Assembly: GCA_023150835.1 (NCBI GenBank)
Contig: JAKLKB010000109.1
Coordinates: 1 to 23,824 of the forward strand
Direction of reading: 5' to 3'
Length of the DNA: 23,824 bases
Source of the DNA: Myxococcota bacterium
Lineage (GTDB): Bacteria; Myxococcota_C; UBA6777
Shown here piece after piece: positions 1 to 19,536 of the stretch (positions are counted from its first letter, which is position 1; each line of letters begins with the position of its first letter). The translations under genes and the position numbers were made by a program. The notes beneath the pieces are model-generated. The model saw nothing but the letters and a program-made list of their open reading frames with translations. It was not told the DNA's origin and did no database searches.

Positions 1-414
1 TCTTTCGCAACAAAGCCATCGATGCCTTGTTTCGCCCCACTCTACAAGCCGAAGACTTCAATGACGACACTCTCGGTCGCGCACTCGACGCTCTATTCGA
101 GGAAAATCCCACGACTATCTTTGCTCAAGTTGCGTCTCACGCCCTTCGTACCGCAGGAATCGATGGTGTATTCGTTGGCAGAAAGAGAAGTGCGAAAAAA
201 GCTGAAAGAGAGTGGAGAAAGCCTGCCAGACCAAAAAGGAAAACCAACGCAAAACATCACGATGAGGCGGATATTTCAAATGTTTGAGGGGATTCATGTT
301 CTGTGGTATCGGGAAGAGGGCGTGCTGAAACGTATGATACTCAGCCTCACAGATCTCCATCATCGGATACTTCGCTGTTTTGGAGAGGAGGTGCTGCGGT
401 GTTATGCCCTTTGA
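1..414 (+). pseudogene. IS1634-family transposase relic, internally deleted and frameshifted
   Basis: Two reading frames each carry one end of the same transposase. From position 3, frame 3 gives the N-terminal region typical of IS1634-family (DUF4277) transposases, including NDDTLGRALDALFE. From about 168, frame 1 gives the extreme C-terminus: VYSLAEREVRKKL, then LPDQKGKPTQ, then LHHRILRCFGEEVLRCY, ending at 414. The two halves meet near 160-172. Full-length members have several hundred residues between these blocks, including the DDE catalytic core, so the core is missing and the frame is shifted. The left part of the element lies outside the window. It is a dead copy, comparable to an internally deleted, MITE-like derivative. 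The assignment rests on remembered family motifs. Confidence 0.8.
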
Positions 415-1812: not shown

Positions 1813-4008
1813 TCAGCCGACGTTGAGAACGCCGACACCTGCTTGCCCGAGTTGAGCGACGACAGAAGCGTCTAGATCTCCGCGCAGTGCTTCGACCGAA
1901 GCGCGGGAACCCGAATAATAGTGGCTATCGGCCTCGATCGCGGAGTTGACCGTAGACAAGGGGATGTTGGGCAGATTGTAGGCTTTCAGAAAAGCATCCC
2001 ACACGGCGCTGTCACGGTAGCCGCTGTCTGTTTTCAGGGACTGCGCCGCAAACACCAAGGCGTGCATCTTGTCATCCGCCCCTTTGAACGGCCACGTCGG
2101 ATCGGTCGCGCCTTTGTGCAACGCATACTCATAAGCCGAGGCCATCCGCAAGGCTTCTTCGGACATATGCGCAAAACGTGCATCCATCGTCATCTCGACG
2201 GTGCCTTCGGGGGTTTTGTTAAAGTGGAACAAGCCCGTCTCACCGGGCTTTGCATCATGGTATCCGCCCGGAACCACTTCGGCAGTTCCGTTGCGTTGGC
2301 TCGTTCCCAAGGTCTCGTTGTAGACGCTGATGCGGTTGGTACTCATGGCCGCAAAGTGGATGTTGGTTCCGATCAAGTCTTCGGTGGATCGGGGCTGTTG
2401 GATGGGTTGGAATTCGCGTGCTGTATCCGCCTTCACAGCAAAGGTGTTGAAGTTGACCATCCGATCGAAGATATCGGCTTGTCCGTCGTGATCGGTATCA
2501 AGGTGTTGGCGGCGGATCTTGAGGTCGGTGGGGAAGATAAAGTTGTTGTCGATGCCGCTTTCGCTTTTGTGTTCGCGAGTCCACGGGTTTGCGACACGGA
2601 CATCTTCGGCGATCGACTCGTAACCACGGCGTTCTGCGATCCCTTCAAACAGTTCTTTCATGGCATAATGGGACTCAGCAGTTCCTCCTTGGCGGAAGTA
2701 CTCGGAGTTGTAAGTCGTGATCACTTGCGCGTCGGGGAATTTGTCTTTGATTTGTTGGAGTTCGCCTTTTCCGACGCAGAGATTGGTCATGATCAGCTTG
2801 CCGTCGCCCGAAGCTGTGGGGGTGCCTTCGAGAGAGCCGCGCACATTTTTCCCCCAGCCCGAATGACCCGAATAGATCGCGATGTGTGTGTCGGGGTTGT
2901 TCATCTCTTTGAACATATTGTTTTGGCTGGTGCGGAAGTTCAGACGGAAGGTGGTTTCCACACCGTTCTTTTCGTAAGTCTTTTCCAAGATCGGGTTGGC
3001 GTCGGTTCCACCAGCGCGCTTAAAGCCGATCCCTTCGAAGTATTTGACGTTGTCTTCGATAAAGCCTTCGCCTGCGCCGTTGGAAAAGTCCACGTTGACG
3101 GTGTTGTTGCCGTTGGCGAACCATTTTTCGTAGGGGGGTTGGGTGGCGTTGGCGGAAGAGACCAAGGCATCGGCACGATCGCGCAGGGCCGAAGGAAGGC
3201 TGCTTTTGAGGCGATCAAGGTTCATCGCCATCGAGTCTTTGAGCAGGGGATGGGTTTCGCGTTGGAAGGCTTTTTCGTAAGCATCGAAGGCGCGTGTTTT
3301 GAGATCGTTGGAGATGTTGTGTTTGCTGGTCATCAGTTCGAGCAAGGTGGTTGCCGAAGAAGACCGAAGTTGCAGGGTTTGTGTTTGGTCGAGACCTTGG
3401 GCAGATTGACCGGGGGCGGTTTGTTGCAAGGTTTCGGTGAGATGGCCTAGCATCTTTTCTTTGAGGGCGGCGGGAGCTTGGATATCATCGAACAGATTGC
3501 CTTTGACGTCATCGATCAAACTGGCCATCCGAAACAGGCCATCGCCCACTTCTTTGAGGCCCTGCGGCTCGCGACCATCGGGCATGGCGACTTGTCCGCT
3601 TGGGGTCAACTGCACAGGTCGACGTGCGCCCGTGGGATCGAGATTTGGGGTTGTTGCGCTCAATTCACCCGATGCATCGGTCTTGATCACACGAAGGCGA
3701 GACATCTCAAGCCCCGATTGTGCATCAAAGACGCTCAACTTGGCGGCGCGGGGATCTTCGAGGGCGCGTTTGAGGGCGGCAGCGTCTTCGGTCGAAAGGC
3801 CGTCCGTTTTCACTCCGATGTGGCTGTGGCGATCCCACGACCACTTGTTTTCAGAGACCATCACATCGACGACTCCGTCACCTGCTTTGGATTTGTCAAA
3901 GCTCTGTTCCACGCCACCTTTGGACCAGCTTTGTTTCATGCGTTGGGCGTCGACTTCGACTTGGCGTCCTGTTTGTTGGTCACGAAAGCGGATCTTGTAA
4001 TCAGACAT
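1813..4008 (-). CDS. Putative clan CD (caspase/gingipain-like) cysteine peptidase with EF-hand-like loop
   Basis: A 731-aa protein. I chose ATG 4008 because AAGGAG sits 8 bases upstream; the open frame runs 100 codons further, but that part is translated repeat DNA. Residues 1-300 look mostly helical and soluble, with no signal peptide. Residues 371-440 show a hydrophobic strand ending in YSGHSGWG (H382), then KLIMTNLCVGKGEL (C411), then another strand, AQVITTYN. That is the strand-His, strand-Cys order of clan CD peptidases (caspases, gingipains, CHAT). Residues 504-515 read DTDHDGQADIFD, a DxDxDG calcium loop. The C-terminal 200 residues are not recognised. Last gene of the minus-strand cluster, separated from the pilin-like gene by a palindromic repeat. 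Enzyme activity is inferred. Confidence 0.55.
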   Translation of the reverse strand: MSDYKIRFRDQQTGRQVEVDAQRMKQSWSKGGVEQSFDKSKAGDGVVDVMVSENKWSWDRHSHIGVKTDGLSTEDAAALKRALEDPRAAKLSVFDAQSGLEMSRLRVIKTDASGELSATTPNLDPTGARRPVQLTPSGQVAMPDGREPQGLKEVGDGLFRMASLIDDVKGNLFDDIQAPAALKEKMLGHLTETLQQTAPGQSAQGLDQTQTLQLRSSSATTLLELMTSKHNISNDLKTRAFDAYEKAFQRETHPLLKDSMAMNLDRLKSSLPSALRDRADALVSSANATQPPYEKWFANGNNTVNVDFSNGAGEGFIEDNVKYFEGIGFKRAGGTDANPILEKTYEKNGVETTFRLNFRTSQNNMFKEMNNPDTHIAIYSGHSGWGKNVRGSLEGTPTASGDGKLIMTNLCVGKGELQQIKDKFPDAQVITTYNSEYFRQGGTAESHYAMKELFEGIAERRGYESIAEDVRVANPWTREHKSESGIDNNFIFPTDLKIRRQHLDTDHDGQADIFDRMVNFNTFAVKADTAREFQPIQQPRSTEDLIGTNIHFAAMSTNRISVYNETLGTSQRNGTAEVVPGGYHDAKPGETGLFHFNKTPEGTVEMTMDARFAHMSEEALRMASAYEYALHKGATDPTWPFKGADDKMHALVFAAQSLKTDSGYRDSAVWDAFLKAYNLPNIPLSTVNSAIEADSHYYSGSRASVEALRGDLDASVVAQLGQAGVGVLNVG

Positions 4009-4189
4009 CGGCTTGCTCCTTTTTGTAGCTCCCCTCCATTCAAGGAAAGGATGAAAAACGTTTGTTCGTATCGAGAGATCACAGCGATAGGTACAGACCG
4101 CCATTATCGTATGGTTTCCTCGAAAAGGTGCGTCTGTCGATGCGGGCAGAGGGAGGGCGGCGAAGGAACGTTGTGGGGTGTGGTGCAAC

Positions 4190-5938: not shown

Positions 5939-8437
5939 CTAGGCTTTTTTGCGCACTCGCAAGAAAAACAACAGCCCAAACCACACCATCCAAGCGACGG
6001 GGGAGACGGGCGTGGTTTGGCATCCGCACGCAGGCGGGGGCGAATGGGGCGAGGCTTTGTCGGACAAAAAGGGCGAAGGGAAACCAAGGCGAGGCAAGGC
6101 CACGACGTGCTGTTCGGCTTGGTGCAGCGTGGGTTTCCAGTCGATGGGGGGAAGCGTAGTGACGTTTCCTGCGGCATCTTGGGCGCGTAGAGAAACGGTG
6201 GTGTTTGGAGTGAGCCGCGCAGCCGGCAAAAACGCCTCGGTGGGAGACCATAGCGTTTGACCATCGAGGCGATAAGAGAAGCGAACAGGTGCGTGCGGAT
6301 CGCCGTGATCGACGGCTTCAAGAAAGATCCCTTGGGGCTGGATGCGTGCTTGGATCGCAGGCGGCGTATAATCCACCCTGATCGGGACAGAGCCGATCGC
6401 CACTTCGGTCCCTTGGGGCTGATCGACGCGCCGCGCACGAACCATCACGGTATGCTCACCTTGCATCAAAAATTGCGGACTTTCTACGCGCAAGCGTTGA
6501 CTTGCCACAAAAGCCTGCCACGGACCTTGGTTGACGCGCACAGCATAAGCCCACGCAGGATCTCCGTCCAAGATGTCGATCGATACGGAGGGATAAGCGC
6601 GGATCGGTCGTGCCGACTGGAGATCAGACCACAGCGACGGAGGGATCAGCGGCATCGCAGGGCGCAAGGCCAAGCCCCGTACTGCGGGCATCTGCGGGAT
6701 CGCTGGAGGCGCAAGTGCCAGATCGGCGAACAATCCGAGGAATTGGAAGCGATCAGGGCGATCCGTTCGTGGGACGATCCCCGTCATCCCACGGATCGAC
6801 AGCTTGAAACCTTGAAGCTCAGGGATATCAAACTCTGTCGAGCCGATTTGACCGATCAACACGGGGATCAGCGCTTGGAGTGTTGAGGCAAAGTTGGTGG
6901 CGACGTCTTCATTTTTTTCTTTGATCAAGTTGGAGTTGAGGACTTGGGGGTTCTGAAATGCCTGTTTGAGATCGCCAAGCAACAGCCCGATCTTGTTGTT
7001 CGGTCGCGTTTCGAGCGCCATCGGCAAAACGATATCTGTGCGAAACGTCAACAGCCGAACCCATCGGTCGTAAAGCACCATGTAAAACGTAAAGTCGATC
7101 TTCGGGATGCGCATCTCCAACAGCGGCTCTTTGACGACTGCGTTTCCATCTTTGTCTTTGGTGATCTCGCCCTTGCCAATGGACAGATCGATCGGCTCGT
7201 TGGGTTGTAAGACGATATACAATGGGGGGTTGTCTTTGCCCACAAGTTGAAGCAACGAAGGGCTTACCGCTGCCCCGATGCCTTGAGCGCGAAAGAACGT
7301 CCCCAACTGGTCGCTGATGCCGCTGTCTAGGCGCAAACACAACGCGCCACTTTGATACAGATCCCGCATAAACTGCGTCAGCATCGTTTGAGAGATGCCC
7401 ACGCCCACCATATACGGGCTTCCGTCGGGCGAAGCTGTGGGAAAAGTCAGCGCCGCAGGAGACGGTAGCTTCGGAAAGTTCGGCGCTTTGATACAAGCGT
7501 GCGGGGTGCTTTGGCTCCCTCCAAGACTGCCAAGGCGCATCCCCGAAGTCTGCACTTCCACGCTTCCGCCCATCTGCATCGCCATGTCCACAGGCTGCGC
7601 GGTCGGATTCCCAAACTCCCCAAGCAGCGTGCTTGTCGCGATACGGCCTTCAAACCCCATCACCATCGGCAAACACGCTTTGCCATCGGTGCAGATCTCG
7701 TCTTTGCAAGTCGTCCCAAAACCGCACTCACTGTCTTGTTTGCAAGACATACAAGTCGCCCCATCGATCGCATCTTTGAGTGCTTTTTTCACTTCTTTTT
7801 CGATCAAACCTGTAAACAACCCTTTGAGCGCGTTAATCAACGAACAACCGACGTTTCCACTCAGCTTAAAATCTTTGTTTTCCAACGAAAACGACGGCGT
7901 ACCGAGATCGATCCGCAGACCTTTGTTGCGCGAGTCGATGCTGAGGTTGAGATCGATGCTGATATCTTTTTTTGAGATCGTGACTTCGAGATCGCAATTA
8001 ATCGTGACCAGCAGCTTGTAGCTGATCGGGATCTTGTTGGAAGACATATCGAGGTTGATCTTGGCTTTCAACGTCTTGGGGGGCGTGGGTGTAATGGACG
8101 CGCTGTTGATCTTGCCGTTGACCGTGCAGGTTCCGCCTTTGTGGCAGATCTTTGGATCGCCGCTTGTATCGGGCGGGACATCAAAACTCAAACCGTTGGG
8201 CAAAAACTGTTTCACCAGCGCGTTGGTATTTTGCCCAATAAACTGGAACCCGCGATCCGTCACTTTCAACTGGACGATGTTGTCGAGCTTTGCGGCCTCT
8301 GGAAAGCCCCCCGGGATCTCGGACATACAGCTACATCCGCTGTTTCCCGAAGAAGAACACGCCGAAAACACAAACAACCACCCCAAAAGCAAGGCGCTTC
8401 GGCCCCACAAACCACGCCCAAACCAACACGCTCGCAT
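5939..8437 (-). CDS. Dual-anchored surface lipoprotein (lipobox plus MYXO-CTERM-like tail)
   Basis: An 832-aa protein; ATG 8437 has GGAGGT at 6 bases. The N-terminus is a lipoprotein signal with lipobox FSAC (C27). Residues 45-225 alternate hydrophobic strands and end in a helix (LIEKEVKKALKDAIDG), resembling one lobe of a BPI/LBP (TULIP) lipid-binding fold; this is a guess from pattern. A Cys-rich insert follows (C229, C232, C238, C244, C249, C255). Residues 650-780 look like beta-sandwich repeats. The last 30 residues, ACGCQTTPVSP + hydrophobic helix + RVRKKA, match the MYXO-CTERM layout: Cys, helix, basic end. Having both an N-terminal lipid anchor and a C-terminal sorting tail is unusual. 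First gene of the minus-strand cluster. Confidence 0.7.
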   Translation of the reverse strand: MRACWFGRGLWGRSALLLGWLFVFSACSSSGNSGCSCMSEIPGGFPEAAKLDNIVQLKVTDRGFQFIGQNTNALVKQFLPNGLSFDVPPDTSGDPKICHKGGTCTVNGKINSASITPTPPKTLKAKINLDMSSNKIPISYKLLVTINCDLEVTISKKDISIDLNLSIDSRNKGLRIDLGTPSFSLENKDFKLSGNVGCSLINALKGLFTGLIEKEVKKALKDAIDGATCMSCKQDSECGFGTTCKDEICTDGKACLPMVMGFEGRIATSTLLGEFGNPTAQPVDMAMQMGGSVEVQTSGMRLGSLGGSQSTPHACIKAPNFPKLPSPAALTFPTASPDGSPYMVGVGISQTMLTQFMRDLYQSGALCLRLDSGISDQLGTFFRAQGIGAAVSPSLLQLVGKDNPPLYIVLQPNEPIDLSIGKGEITKDKDGNAVVKEPLLEMRIPKIDFTFYMVLYDRWVRLLTFRTDIVLPMALETRPNNKIGLLLGDLKQAFQNPQVLNSNLIKEKNEDVATNFASTLQALIPVLIGQIGSTEFDIPELQGFKLSIRGMTGIVPRTDRPDRFQFLGLFADLALAPPAIPQMPAVRGLALRPAMPLIPPSLWSDLQSARPIRAYPSVSIDILDGDPAWAYAVRVNQGPWQAFVASQRLRVESPQFLMQGEHTVMVRARRVDQPQGTEVAIGSVPIRVDYTPPAIQARIQPQGIFLEAVDHGDPHAPVRFSYRLDGQTLWSPTEAFLPAARLTPNTTVSLRAQDAAGNVTTLPPIDWKPTLHQAEQHVVALPRLGFPSPFLSDKASPHSPPPACGCQTTPVSPVAWMVWFGLLFFLRVRKKA

Positions 8438-18507: not shown

Positions 18508-18963
18508 ATGGCTCTTCAAAACCCACCGTTGACCCCAACAGCCCAAGAAACATCGCTCGCCAAAAGGTCAAGCCAAATTCTCGCAAAGCACCTAAAGAGC
18601 GGAGGGAGCGTCAAGCTGAAACTCGATCAAGCGGGTCAGCCCGAAGAAGTACTTGAAATCCCTTCTTCTCTGTTGCACTTGCTTCACCGCGTGTTGGAAG
18701 AGATGGCGAAAGGAAACACGCTCGCCATCTTCCCACAAGAAGAAGAACTGACGACAAGTCAAGCCGCTGAGGTGTTGGGGGTTTCGAGGCCCTTCCTCCT
18801 GAAGCTGCTGGAAGACGGTGAAATAGCCTACCGACAAGTCGGCTCTCATCGGCGAATCACCTCCAAAGAACTGGTGGAATACAAAGAGCGAACAAAAAAG
18901 CAACGAAAAGAAGTGCTTGATCAACTCGCAGCAGAAGCACAAGAACTCGATATGGGTTATTAG
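18508..18963 (+). CDS. Excisionase-type HTH antitoxin
   Basis: A 151-aa protein; ATG 18508 has AGGA 7 bases upstream. Residues 1-70 are a variable region. Residues 80-130 are a MerR/excisionase-like helix-turn-helix: LTTSQAAEVLGVSRPFLLKL, then LEDGEIAYRQVGSHRRI and the following helix. This is the DNA-binding fold found in antitoxins paired with PIN-domain toxins. It should neutralise the toxin encoded 3 bases downstream and repress the operon through the palindrome at 18471-18492. The whole unit lies between 65-bp direct repeats. Confidence 0.82.
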   Translation: MALQNPPLTPTAQETSLAKRSSQILAKHLKSGGSVKLKLDQAGQPEEVLEIPSSLLHLLHRVLEEMAKGNTLAIFPQEEELTTSQAAEVLGVSRPFLLKLLEDGEIAYRQVGSHRRITSKELVEYKERTKKQRKEVLDQLAAEAQELDMGY

Positions 18964-18966
18964 GCG

Positions 18967-19536
18967 ATGCCTCATTTTTCCGCGCTGTTCGATGCTTGCG
19001 TTCTTTATCCAGCTCCTCTCCGAGATCTTTTGATGCGCCTTGCTTTGATCGGCTTGTTTCAAGCGAAATGGAGTGCGCAAATCCACGAGGAATGGATGCG
19101 AAATGTGTTGCAAAGTCGGCCTGACCTCAGCAGAGAAAGGCTTGAAAAAACGAGGGAGTTGATGGATCGGCACGCCACTGACGCGCTTGTTGAAGGATAC
19201 GAACATCTTATTCACCAACTCGAGCTTCCCGACGAAGGAGATCGACACGTTCTCGCTGCCGCGATACACGCCAAAGTCGACGTGATCGTGACATTTAACC
19301 TCAAGGATTTCCCTCGCTCTGTGTTGCGACCGTACGGAATCCTCCCTCTACACCCTGACGTCTTTCTTTGCGAATTGCTCGATATCGACCAAGACTCGGT
19401 CTGTCAAGCTGTGCGCGAGCAGCGTTTGTCTCTCAAAAATCCTCCCAAAACGGCACGCGATCTACTCGAAACCCTCGAACAGCAAGGCTTGAAAAAAAGC
19501 GTCGAGCGATTGAACGAGAAACTTGCTCTTCTCTGA
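18967..19536 (+). CDS. PIN-domain ribonuclease toxin (VapC-like)
   Basis: A 189-aa protein whose ATG follows the antitoxin stop by 3 bases, so translation is probably coupled. The N-terminus FDACVLYP gives the first acidic residue of the PIN site (D9). E41/E42 in IHEEWMRN, D89/D92 in PDEGDRHVLAAAI and D114 in TFNLKDFP supply the rest, as in PIN_3-type proteins. The acidic cluster binds Mg2+ or Mn2+ to cut RNA. The extra 50 C-terminal residues are helical and end KSVERLNEKLALL. All key acidic residues are present, so it should be active. The RNA target is unknown. Confidence 0.85.
   Translation: MPHFSALFDACVLYPAPLRDLLMRLALIGLFQAKWSAQIHEEWMRNVLQSRPDLSRERLEKTRELMDRHATDALVEGYEHLIHQLELPDEGDRHVLAAAIHAKVDVIVTFNLKDFPRSVLRPYGILPLHPDVFLCELLDIDQDSVCQAVREQRLSLKNPPKTARDLLETLEQQGLKKSVERLNEKLALL

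Follow-up and report, generated by a model that had tools for sequence, protein, structure and literature searches.

A gene on the minus strand of the window (the whole stretch of DNA analysed, 23,824 nt) likely encodes a multidomain cysteine peptidase of the clan CD type that is structurally nearest to CHAT, is predicted to cleave proteins, carries a putative Ca2+ loop and would belong to an effector-like set of enzymes. This joint assessment was weighted by the fold and catalytic dyad, which form its firmer part, and by calcium binding. The 731-aa open reading frame at 1813-4008 was read from the sequence with its ATG at 4008-4006 and its stop codon at 1815-1813; the gene runs from 4008 to 1813 on the minus strand, a correction to the original prediction. 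A plus-strand ORF of 509 aa (1921-3450) that overlaps the gene was set aside as most likely a codon-bias shadow. The features of the gene and its product are as follows.

1813-4008 (stop included), minus strand: coding sequence of the 731-aa clan CD-like cysteine peptidase family member (MSDYKIRF...VLNVG), called from the ORF, its homologues and a dN/dS of about 0.035
4016-4020, minus strand: AGGAG ribosome-binding site, 7 nt 5' of the ATG, read from the sequence
3664-4008, minus strand: N-terminal beta-rich domain, residues 1-115, with invariant FRD and DGxxD
3121-3558, minus strand: helical repeat region, residues 151-296, with HEAT-like packing in the model
2431-3147, minus strand: peptidase core, residues 288-526, from the AlphaFold2 model and VIA-align
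2851-2874, minus strand: YSGHSGWG motif, residues 379-386, its Y, G, H and G fully or almost fully conserved among homologues
2863-2865, minus strand: H382, predicted catalytic His, after core strand beta3, present in 81/81
2776-2778, minus strand: C411, predicted catalytic Cys nucleophile in NLCVGKGEL, after core strand beta4, present in 81/81 domain-bearing ORFs
2464-2499, minus strand: 12-residue EF-hand-type loop DTDHDGQADIFD, residues 504-515, with D, D, D, G, D and D at positions 1, 3, 5, 6, 9 and 12
1816-2430, minus strand: C-terminal domain, residues 527-731, with the YAHxSEEALR region

The original prediction had named H382 in YSGHSGWG, C411 in NLCVGKGEL and a DxDxDG loop about 95 residues further on. 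This numbering is right, with DTDHDG (504-509) located 93 residues past C411. It had also stated that the protein lacks a signal peptide; hydropathy agrees and gives no transmembrane segment either (maximum 1.15 over 19 residues, with the N-terminus below 0). Within the five genomes of the window's phylum, the beta-rich N-terminal domain is confined to the unnamed peptidase family, and the helical region shows only a weak resemblance to TAF6_C/exportin.

Modelling of the full-length protein by AlphaFold2 from 15 sequences gave a pLDDT of 80.9, and modelling of the core only (288-526) from 73 sequences gave a pLDDT of 93.3 and a pTM of 0.90. The core model has the order beta1-alpha1-beta2-(beta hairpin)-alpha2 (short)-beta3(His)-alpha3-beta4(Cys)-alpha-beta5-alpha, its elements being, in core numbering, strand 16-24, helix 29-39, strand 43-47, the hairpin strands 52-60 and 63-74, helix 80-83, strand 89-93, helix 100-108 and strand 118-122. 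H382 (core H95) is located 2 residues past strand 89-93, and C411 (core C124) 2 residues past strand 118-122. In clan CD, the His ends core strand 3 and the Cys ends core strand 4 (McLuskey and Mottram, PMC4357240); both this placement and the clan CD topology beta1-alpha1-beta2-alpha2-beta3-alpha3-beta4 were found in the core model. Five strands and the hairpin occur within 288-526, and the sixth, antiparallel strand of caspases was not seen in the model; this strand could lie in the C-terminal region, which was modelled at lower confidence.

Structural comparison of the core by VIA-align gave SAVED-CHAT (8tl0_D) as the top match, with a Z of 10.5 and an rmsd of 3.3 over 168 of 239 residues, 2.4 Z units over the next row. 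The CHAT region of 8tl0, 306-460 by sequence, falls within the aligned range of 300-493. Because of this Z of 10.5 to 8tl0_D, the core strands are presumed to run in parallel, a direction that was derived from the match and not from coordinates. Caspase-7 (4hqr, Z 7.6 over 163 residues) and the C11 peptidase iotapain (6nag, Z 7.6 over 178 residues) appeared lower, among small GTPases of similar Z, and only the CHAT row clears this background. With the full-length model, VIA-align placed exportin HEAT repeats first and caspases at Z 7.4, and Foldseek, with this model as with the core, returned weak matches headed by small GTPases, none of them convincing. The Foldseek search with the core was headed by Rab/Ran-type small GTPases (E 6e-4 to 3e-3), as would be expected if the core were an ordinary P-loop or Rossmann-like alpha/beta domain with a structural His and Cys. 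We disfavour this reading as very improbable: the TM-scores were low (0.25-0.40 by query), the GTPases reached a Z of at most 8.1 in VIA-align versus 10.5 for CHAT, and the invariant residues sit at the ends of two adjacent strands, where clan CD has its dyad. The small GTPase identity suggested by Foldseek was rejected as no homologue has a P-loop (GxxxxGK[S/T] in 0 of 87 ORFs). The confident AlphaFold2 model, CHAT as the top structural match and the invariance of H382 and C411 instead support the caspase/gingipain/CHAT arrangement that had originally been proposed, the comparison having recovered the clan CD strand order and not a fold without the caspase-haemoglobinase sheet. The assignment of fold and dyad is, in our judgement, highly probable.

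No established family accounts for the protein by sequence. Scans of the protein and 15 homologues with Pfam, NCBIfam, PADLOC and PHROG yielded no family above the cut-off, nor did a Pfam scan of the 73 cores, and PDB sequence searches gave nothing convincing. The CHAT (PF12770) and C14 (PF00656) profiles matched neither the protein nor the 15 full-length sequences nor the 73 cores; C11 (PF03415) and C25 (PF01364) were absent from the Pfam scans of the 15 full-length sequences and from the 25 families listed for the 73 cores. An hhalign comparison with 34 CHAT sequences placed His on His and Cys on Cys at a non-significant E of 0.34, and one with 17 C14 sequences, likewise not significant (E 0.035), covered the His strand only, with GHS on GHG. 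Literature searches of openly accessible papers found no description of the unnamed family. The earlier claim of a new family thus stands, with no Pfam or NCBIfam model covering it. The family is a new family-level branch of a known enzyme type and not a wholly new kind of enzyme, and it has no sequence membership in CHAT, C14, C11 or C25.

Each of the nearest known groups resembles the family in part. CHAT proteins (SAVED-CHAT 8tl0, TPR-CHAT/Craspase) provide the best core match, share the His-then-Cys order on adjacent strands and are likewise multidomain, with the peptidase joined to helical repeats. In contrast to CHAT, the family is not matched by the Pfam CHAT profile at any of the E-values tried, carries GH[S/A] where CHAT has an HG motif, with a His-Cys spacing of 29 residues here, has an EF-hand-type loop after the core, and shows no CRISPR or cyclic-nucleotide-sensor link here. 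The C14 caspases, metacaspases and orthocaspases share the core order beta-alpha-beta-alpha-beta(His)-alpha-beta(Cys), as reflected in the caspase-7 alignment, but the family has an extra beta hairpin after beta2 and another sequence signature, in addition to lacking a Pfam C14 match. C11 enzymes are secreted and self-processed. The family resembles them in its alignment to iotapain and in its candidate Ca2+ loop, clostripain being Ca2+-dependent, whereas no sequence relation to C11 was detected. PmC11 has two additional strands that separate its second strand from the one bearing the His (PMC4357240), and these resemble the hairpin after beta2 of the family.

The gene is a member of a large unnamed family of predicted caspase-like peptidases in Myxococcota and neighbouring lineages. 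Searches recovered family members in all 5 genomes of the window's phylum and in 37 of 195 Myxococcota-type genomes; the matches listed include up to five or six per genome. The window's genome contains a paralogue at 34% identity, and a 98% identical copy of the window gene occurs in a neighbour from the same genus. Comparison with this copy gave a dN of 0.008 and a dS of 0.22 (dN/dS of about 0.035), with 94 differences at third, 12 at first and 2 at second codon positions; the window gene is under purifying selection.

The homologue set comprised 87 distinct ORFs; the peptidase domain is present in 81 of them, with divergence down to about 20-25% identity. By pattern search, GH[S/A/W]-x(20-40)-C occurred in all 81 domain-bearing homologues, and DxDx[DN][GN] was located 60-125 residues beyond the Cys in 79 of them. 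The conservation of H382 and C411, raised as a check in the original prediction, was complete, no domain-bearing homologue lacking either residue. In the 73-sequence core alignment (A2), only G381, H382, G386, C411, D504 and D506 formed invariant columns, and K404, D508, G509, D512 and D515 were conserved at 90% or more. Constraint on just these residues at 20-25% identity has the look of an active site and a metal site. Composition shuffles produced DxDxDG somewhere in 2.3% and GHS-x(20-40)-C in 0.35% of cases; since the motifs can arise by composition, it is their conservation that constitutes real evidence. Three rows of the first alignment that appeared as 'C411V' exceptions were rejected, as they are transglutaminase (TGL) proteins with only the leader module in common.

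Several loci depart from the usual architecture. In one member (L102, G172:C118), the whole peptidase domain is missing and the helical region is joined straight to the DxDxDG loop, either by natural deletion or by an assembly effect. Another, of at least 1614 aa (L099:3308-8149, G252:C65), carries about four tandem repeats of a C-terminal FRF...FAH...LAxEL unit; because this unit is repeated, the C-terminal domain is a separable module. At a third locus (L097, G075:C144), two adjoining family ORFs of more than 1000 codons each represent a tandem duplication. A stub (L009:1498-1785, G002:C90) codes for a close homologue only up to about residue 95 and is followed by unrelated genes, being either a decayed copy or an assembly break.

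The loop at 504-515 has the 12-residue spacing of an EF-hand-type loop, with D504, D506, D508, G509, D512 and D515 at positions 1, 3, 5, 6, 9 and 12; our criterion was D at 1, D/N at 3, D/N at 5, G at 6 and D/E at 12. D504 and D506 were conserved in 81/81, D508 and G509 in 80/81, D512 in 73/81 and D515 in 83/87 (full-length alignment) sequences. Pfam Excalibur/EF-hand matches in the cores remained below threshold. The calcium loop of the original prediction is thus upheld as a near-universal EF-hand-type sequence (79/81), and its binding of Ca2+, which is deduced from the sequence, is likely. A D-rich DG loop past the core could also be read in the sequences of several C14 caspases of the same genomes, so the family is not alone in placing a calcium loop after its clan CD core. 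Activation by Ca2+ is known for clostripain and many metacaspases (C14), and separase is also listed with Ca2+ (PMC4357240, Table 2). On the model of clostripain and metacaspase activation, the loop, placed between the core and the C-terminal domain, would bind Ca2+ and couple it to folding or activation. The loop may instead be a structural calcium site that stiffens the domain linker and has no regulatory effect, which we hold to be the less probable of its uses but a serious one. Secreted bacterial proteins often have DxDxDG-type loops as structural Ca2+ sites, and two homologues (L098 and L101) keep the dyad without the loop; against this, 79 of 81 homologues retain it, more steadily than the residue after the catalytic His, and D-rich loops of a similar kind also come after the core in several C14 homologues from these genomes.

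The residue after H382 is Ser in 59, Ala in 21 and Trp in 1 of the family members, and the preceding G381 is invariant. In clan CD, a Gly adjacent to the catalytic His is conserved in all families, and in caspases it is the residue after the His (PMC4357240). Ser or Ala at this place in the family counts against the clan CD assignment. The original prediction had taken GHS as a departure from known families. This did not hold: C14 domains mostly have GHG, as opposed to the GHS/GHA of the family, but among 17 Pfam-C14 domains sampled in the same five genomes, 5 had GHA and 1 had GHS (6/17), and Ser and Ala alternate within the family itself. GHS was therefore dropped as a diagnostic and is a modest variation. 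Pfam C14 caspase genes are plentiful in these genomes (G000-G004), with 11 in the window's genome and 18 and 21 in relatives. In L114, a C14-like minus-strand ORF from reverse-strand position 1480 has 'SGYG' in place of SGHG; it is near or overlaps a distant family relative on the opposite strand and is either a pseudo-caspase or a chance ORF.

From the position of the dyad we infer that, at the ends of beta4 and beta3 respectively, C411 would serve as nucleophile and H382 as base, and that the enzyme would cut protein substrates. A dyad by itself does not fix the reaction, and the Ser or Ala, not Gly, after the His and the transglutaminase-type enzymes among the leader-sharing relatives would also suit a clan CD-like fold with another activity, such as a Cys-His thiol acyltransferase or esterase, or a maturation protease that cuts itself once. 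We regard this as improbable, as to our knowledge every known clan CD enzyme class with such dyad geometry is a peptidase, and the sequence gives no hint of an acyl-carrier or acyl-donor site. Under the favoured reading as a peptidase acting on proteins, the N-terminal and C-terminal domains would govern targeting and activation.

Most Myxococcota family members carry, right after the Met, a helical module (A5) some 70 residues long that is sometimes doubled, and a search with this module gave matches in 53 of 193 Myxococcota-type genomes. Among 54 other A5-bearing ORFs that were read, the active-site pattern marks at least 14 as calpain-like and 17 as TGase-elicitor-like. Pfam analysis of A5-bearing examples gave Peptidase_C2 (PF00648) at 8e-32 to 8e-36 and TGase_elicitor at 1e-16 and 4e-13, and other examples matched TGL (3e-49), PLD (3e-23) and an ATLF-type zincin (1e-6); A5 also occurs on unassigned proteins. 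Examples of A5 are found at the following positions.

L219:101-1090
L222:92-2137
L240:80-1171
L227:378-2204
L033:529-2034
L265:1231-3195

L240 partly matches DUF533. A further ORF (L269:1-1710, G004:C88) combines the leader module with a domain that has no Pfam match and contains an 'EGGN' segment like that of amidinotransferases/deiminases, possibly another protein-modifying payload. In the window's genome, one A5-bearing protein has two modules and a sub-threshold TGase_elicitor match, and a caspase-like family member with an A5 module (L012) occurs in the same phylum as the window. The window protein has the beta-rich N-terminal domain instead of A5. GHS/GHA and the Cys persist in distant relatives (L112-L116) from outside the phylum; the N-terminus is lipoprotein-like in L112 and secreted-protein-like in L113 and L115.

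Effector and polymorphic-toxin sets are built in this way, with one leader placed on different enzymes (PMC3482391), and the sharing of A5 suggests that its carriers form a single set of effector-type enzymes. The family would be one member of this effector-like set, alongside calpain-like, transglutaminase-like and other enzymes, many of them with the N-terminal leader. Tox-Caspase of polymorphic toxins (PMC3482391) offers a parallel, being a clan CD domain in large modular proteins with an N-terminal module common to other enzymes; by this likeness, such modular proteins may act as delivered effectors. Unlike in polymorphic toxins, the peptidase domain of the family is internal and not C-terminal, it has no known trafficking domain, and no immunity or secretion-system gene was found beside it. 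For the window protein, whose N-terminal domain is different, an effector role would be an extrapolation from its A5-bearing relatives, and we place an exported or effector role slightly short of an even chance. More tentatively still, A5 might serve as a sorting signal for a delivery route not yet described, which would export largely calcium-switched protein-modifying enzymes, with the caspase-like family as one payload; we consider this rather doubtful.

The gene neighbourhood contains a MerC-like gene, a MopE-motif protein and a lipoprotein-like protein and, by reading of translations, two protein kinases and house-keeping genes. The MopE-motif protein, which has a lipoprotein-like N-terminus, and the lipoprotein-like protein are encoded upstream on the same strand, the gap to the upstream neighbour being 296 bp. 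With these two genes the surface-protein cluster claimed in the original prediction is real, but it is weak given this gap and the lack of conserved synteny: no neighbour gene was conserved across the distant loci L015-L018 and the window, and synteny occurred only in near-identical genomes. The protein had no match in plasmids, phages or viral contigs, and a mobile or viral origin is therefore without support. Elsewhere in the window, an 832-aa protein (5942-8437, minus strand) has a lipoprotein-like N-terminus and a MYXO-CTERM-like Cys-TM-basic tail, ACGCQTTPVSPVAWMVWFGLLFFLRVRKKA. Adjoining HTH_17 and PIN_3 genes (18508-19533, plus strand) are likely a type II toxin-antitoxin pair, and a DUF4277-matching fragment (3-284, plus strand) lies at the contig edge.

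The lack of a signal peptide and transmembrane segment would also fit an intracellular regulatory or cell-death protease that, like orthocaspases and CHAT defence effectors, would remain cytosolic until Ca2+ or a partner activates it there. The best structural neighbour points the same way, SAVED-CHAT being a cytosolic protease of a type III CRISPR system (PMC11417357), as does the abundance of Pfam C14 caspases in the same genomes (11 in the window's own and 21 in one relative). We nevertheless hold such a role to be unlikely, since there was no PADLOC or PHROG match and there are no conserved partner genes, the leader module of the relatives is common to transglutaminases and calpain-like enzymes, and the distant relatives look exported. 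The cytosolic executioner of the original prediction is not supported: none of the analyses points to cell suicide, and the leader module on other members directs attention to a set of effectors and enzymes. The preferred reading is that of an effector-like peptidase probably meant for use outside the cytosol.

Clan CD peptidases function in cell death, immunity and toxin release. A bacterial branch that is missed by the standard family libraries would provide a testable group between CHAT, clostripain and the caspases. The wide occurrence of this branch among myxobacteria and related lineages, together with a leader common to calpains and transglutaminases, leads directly to the question of how social predators may deliver protein-modifying enzymes.
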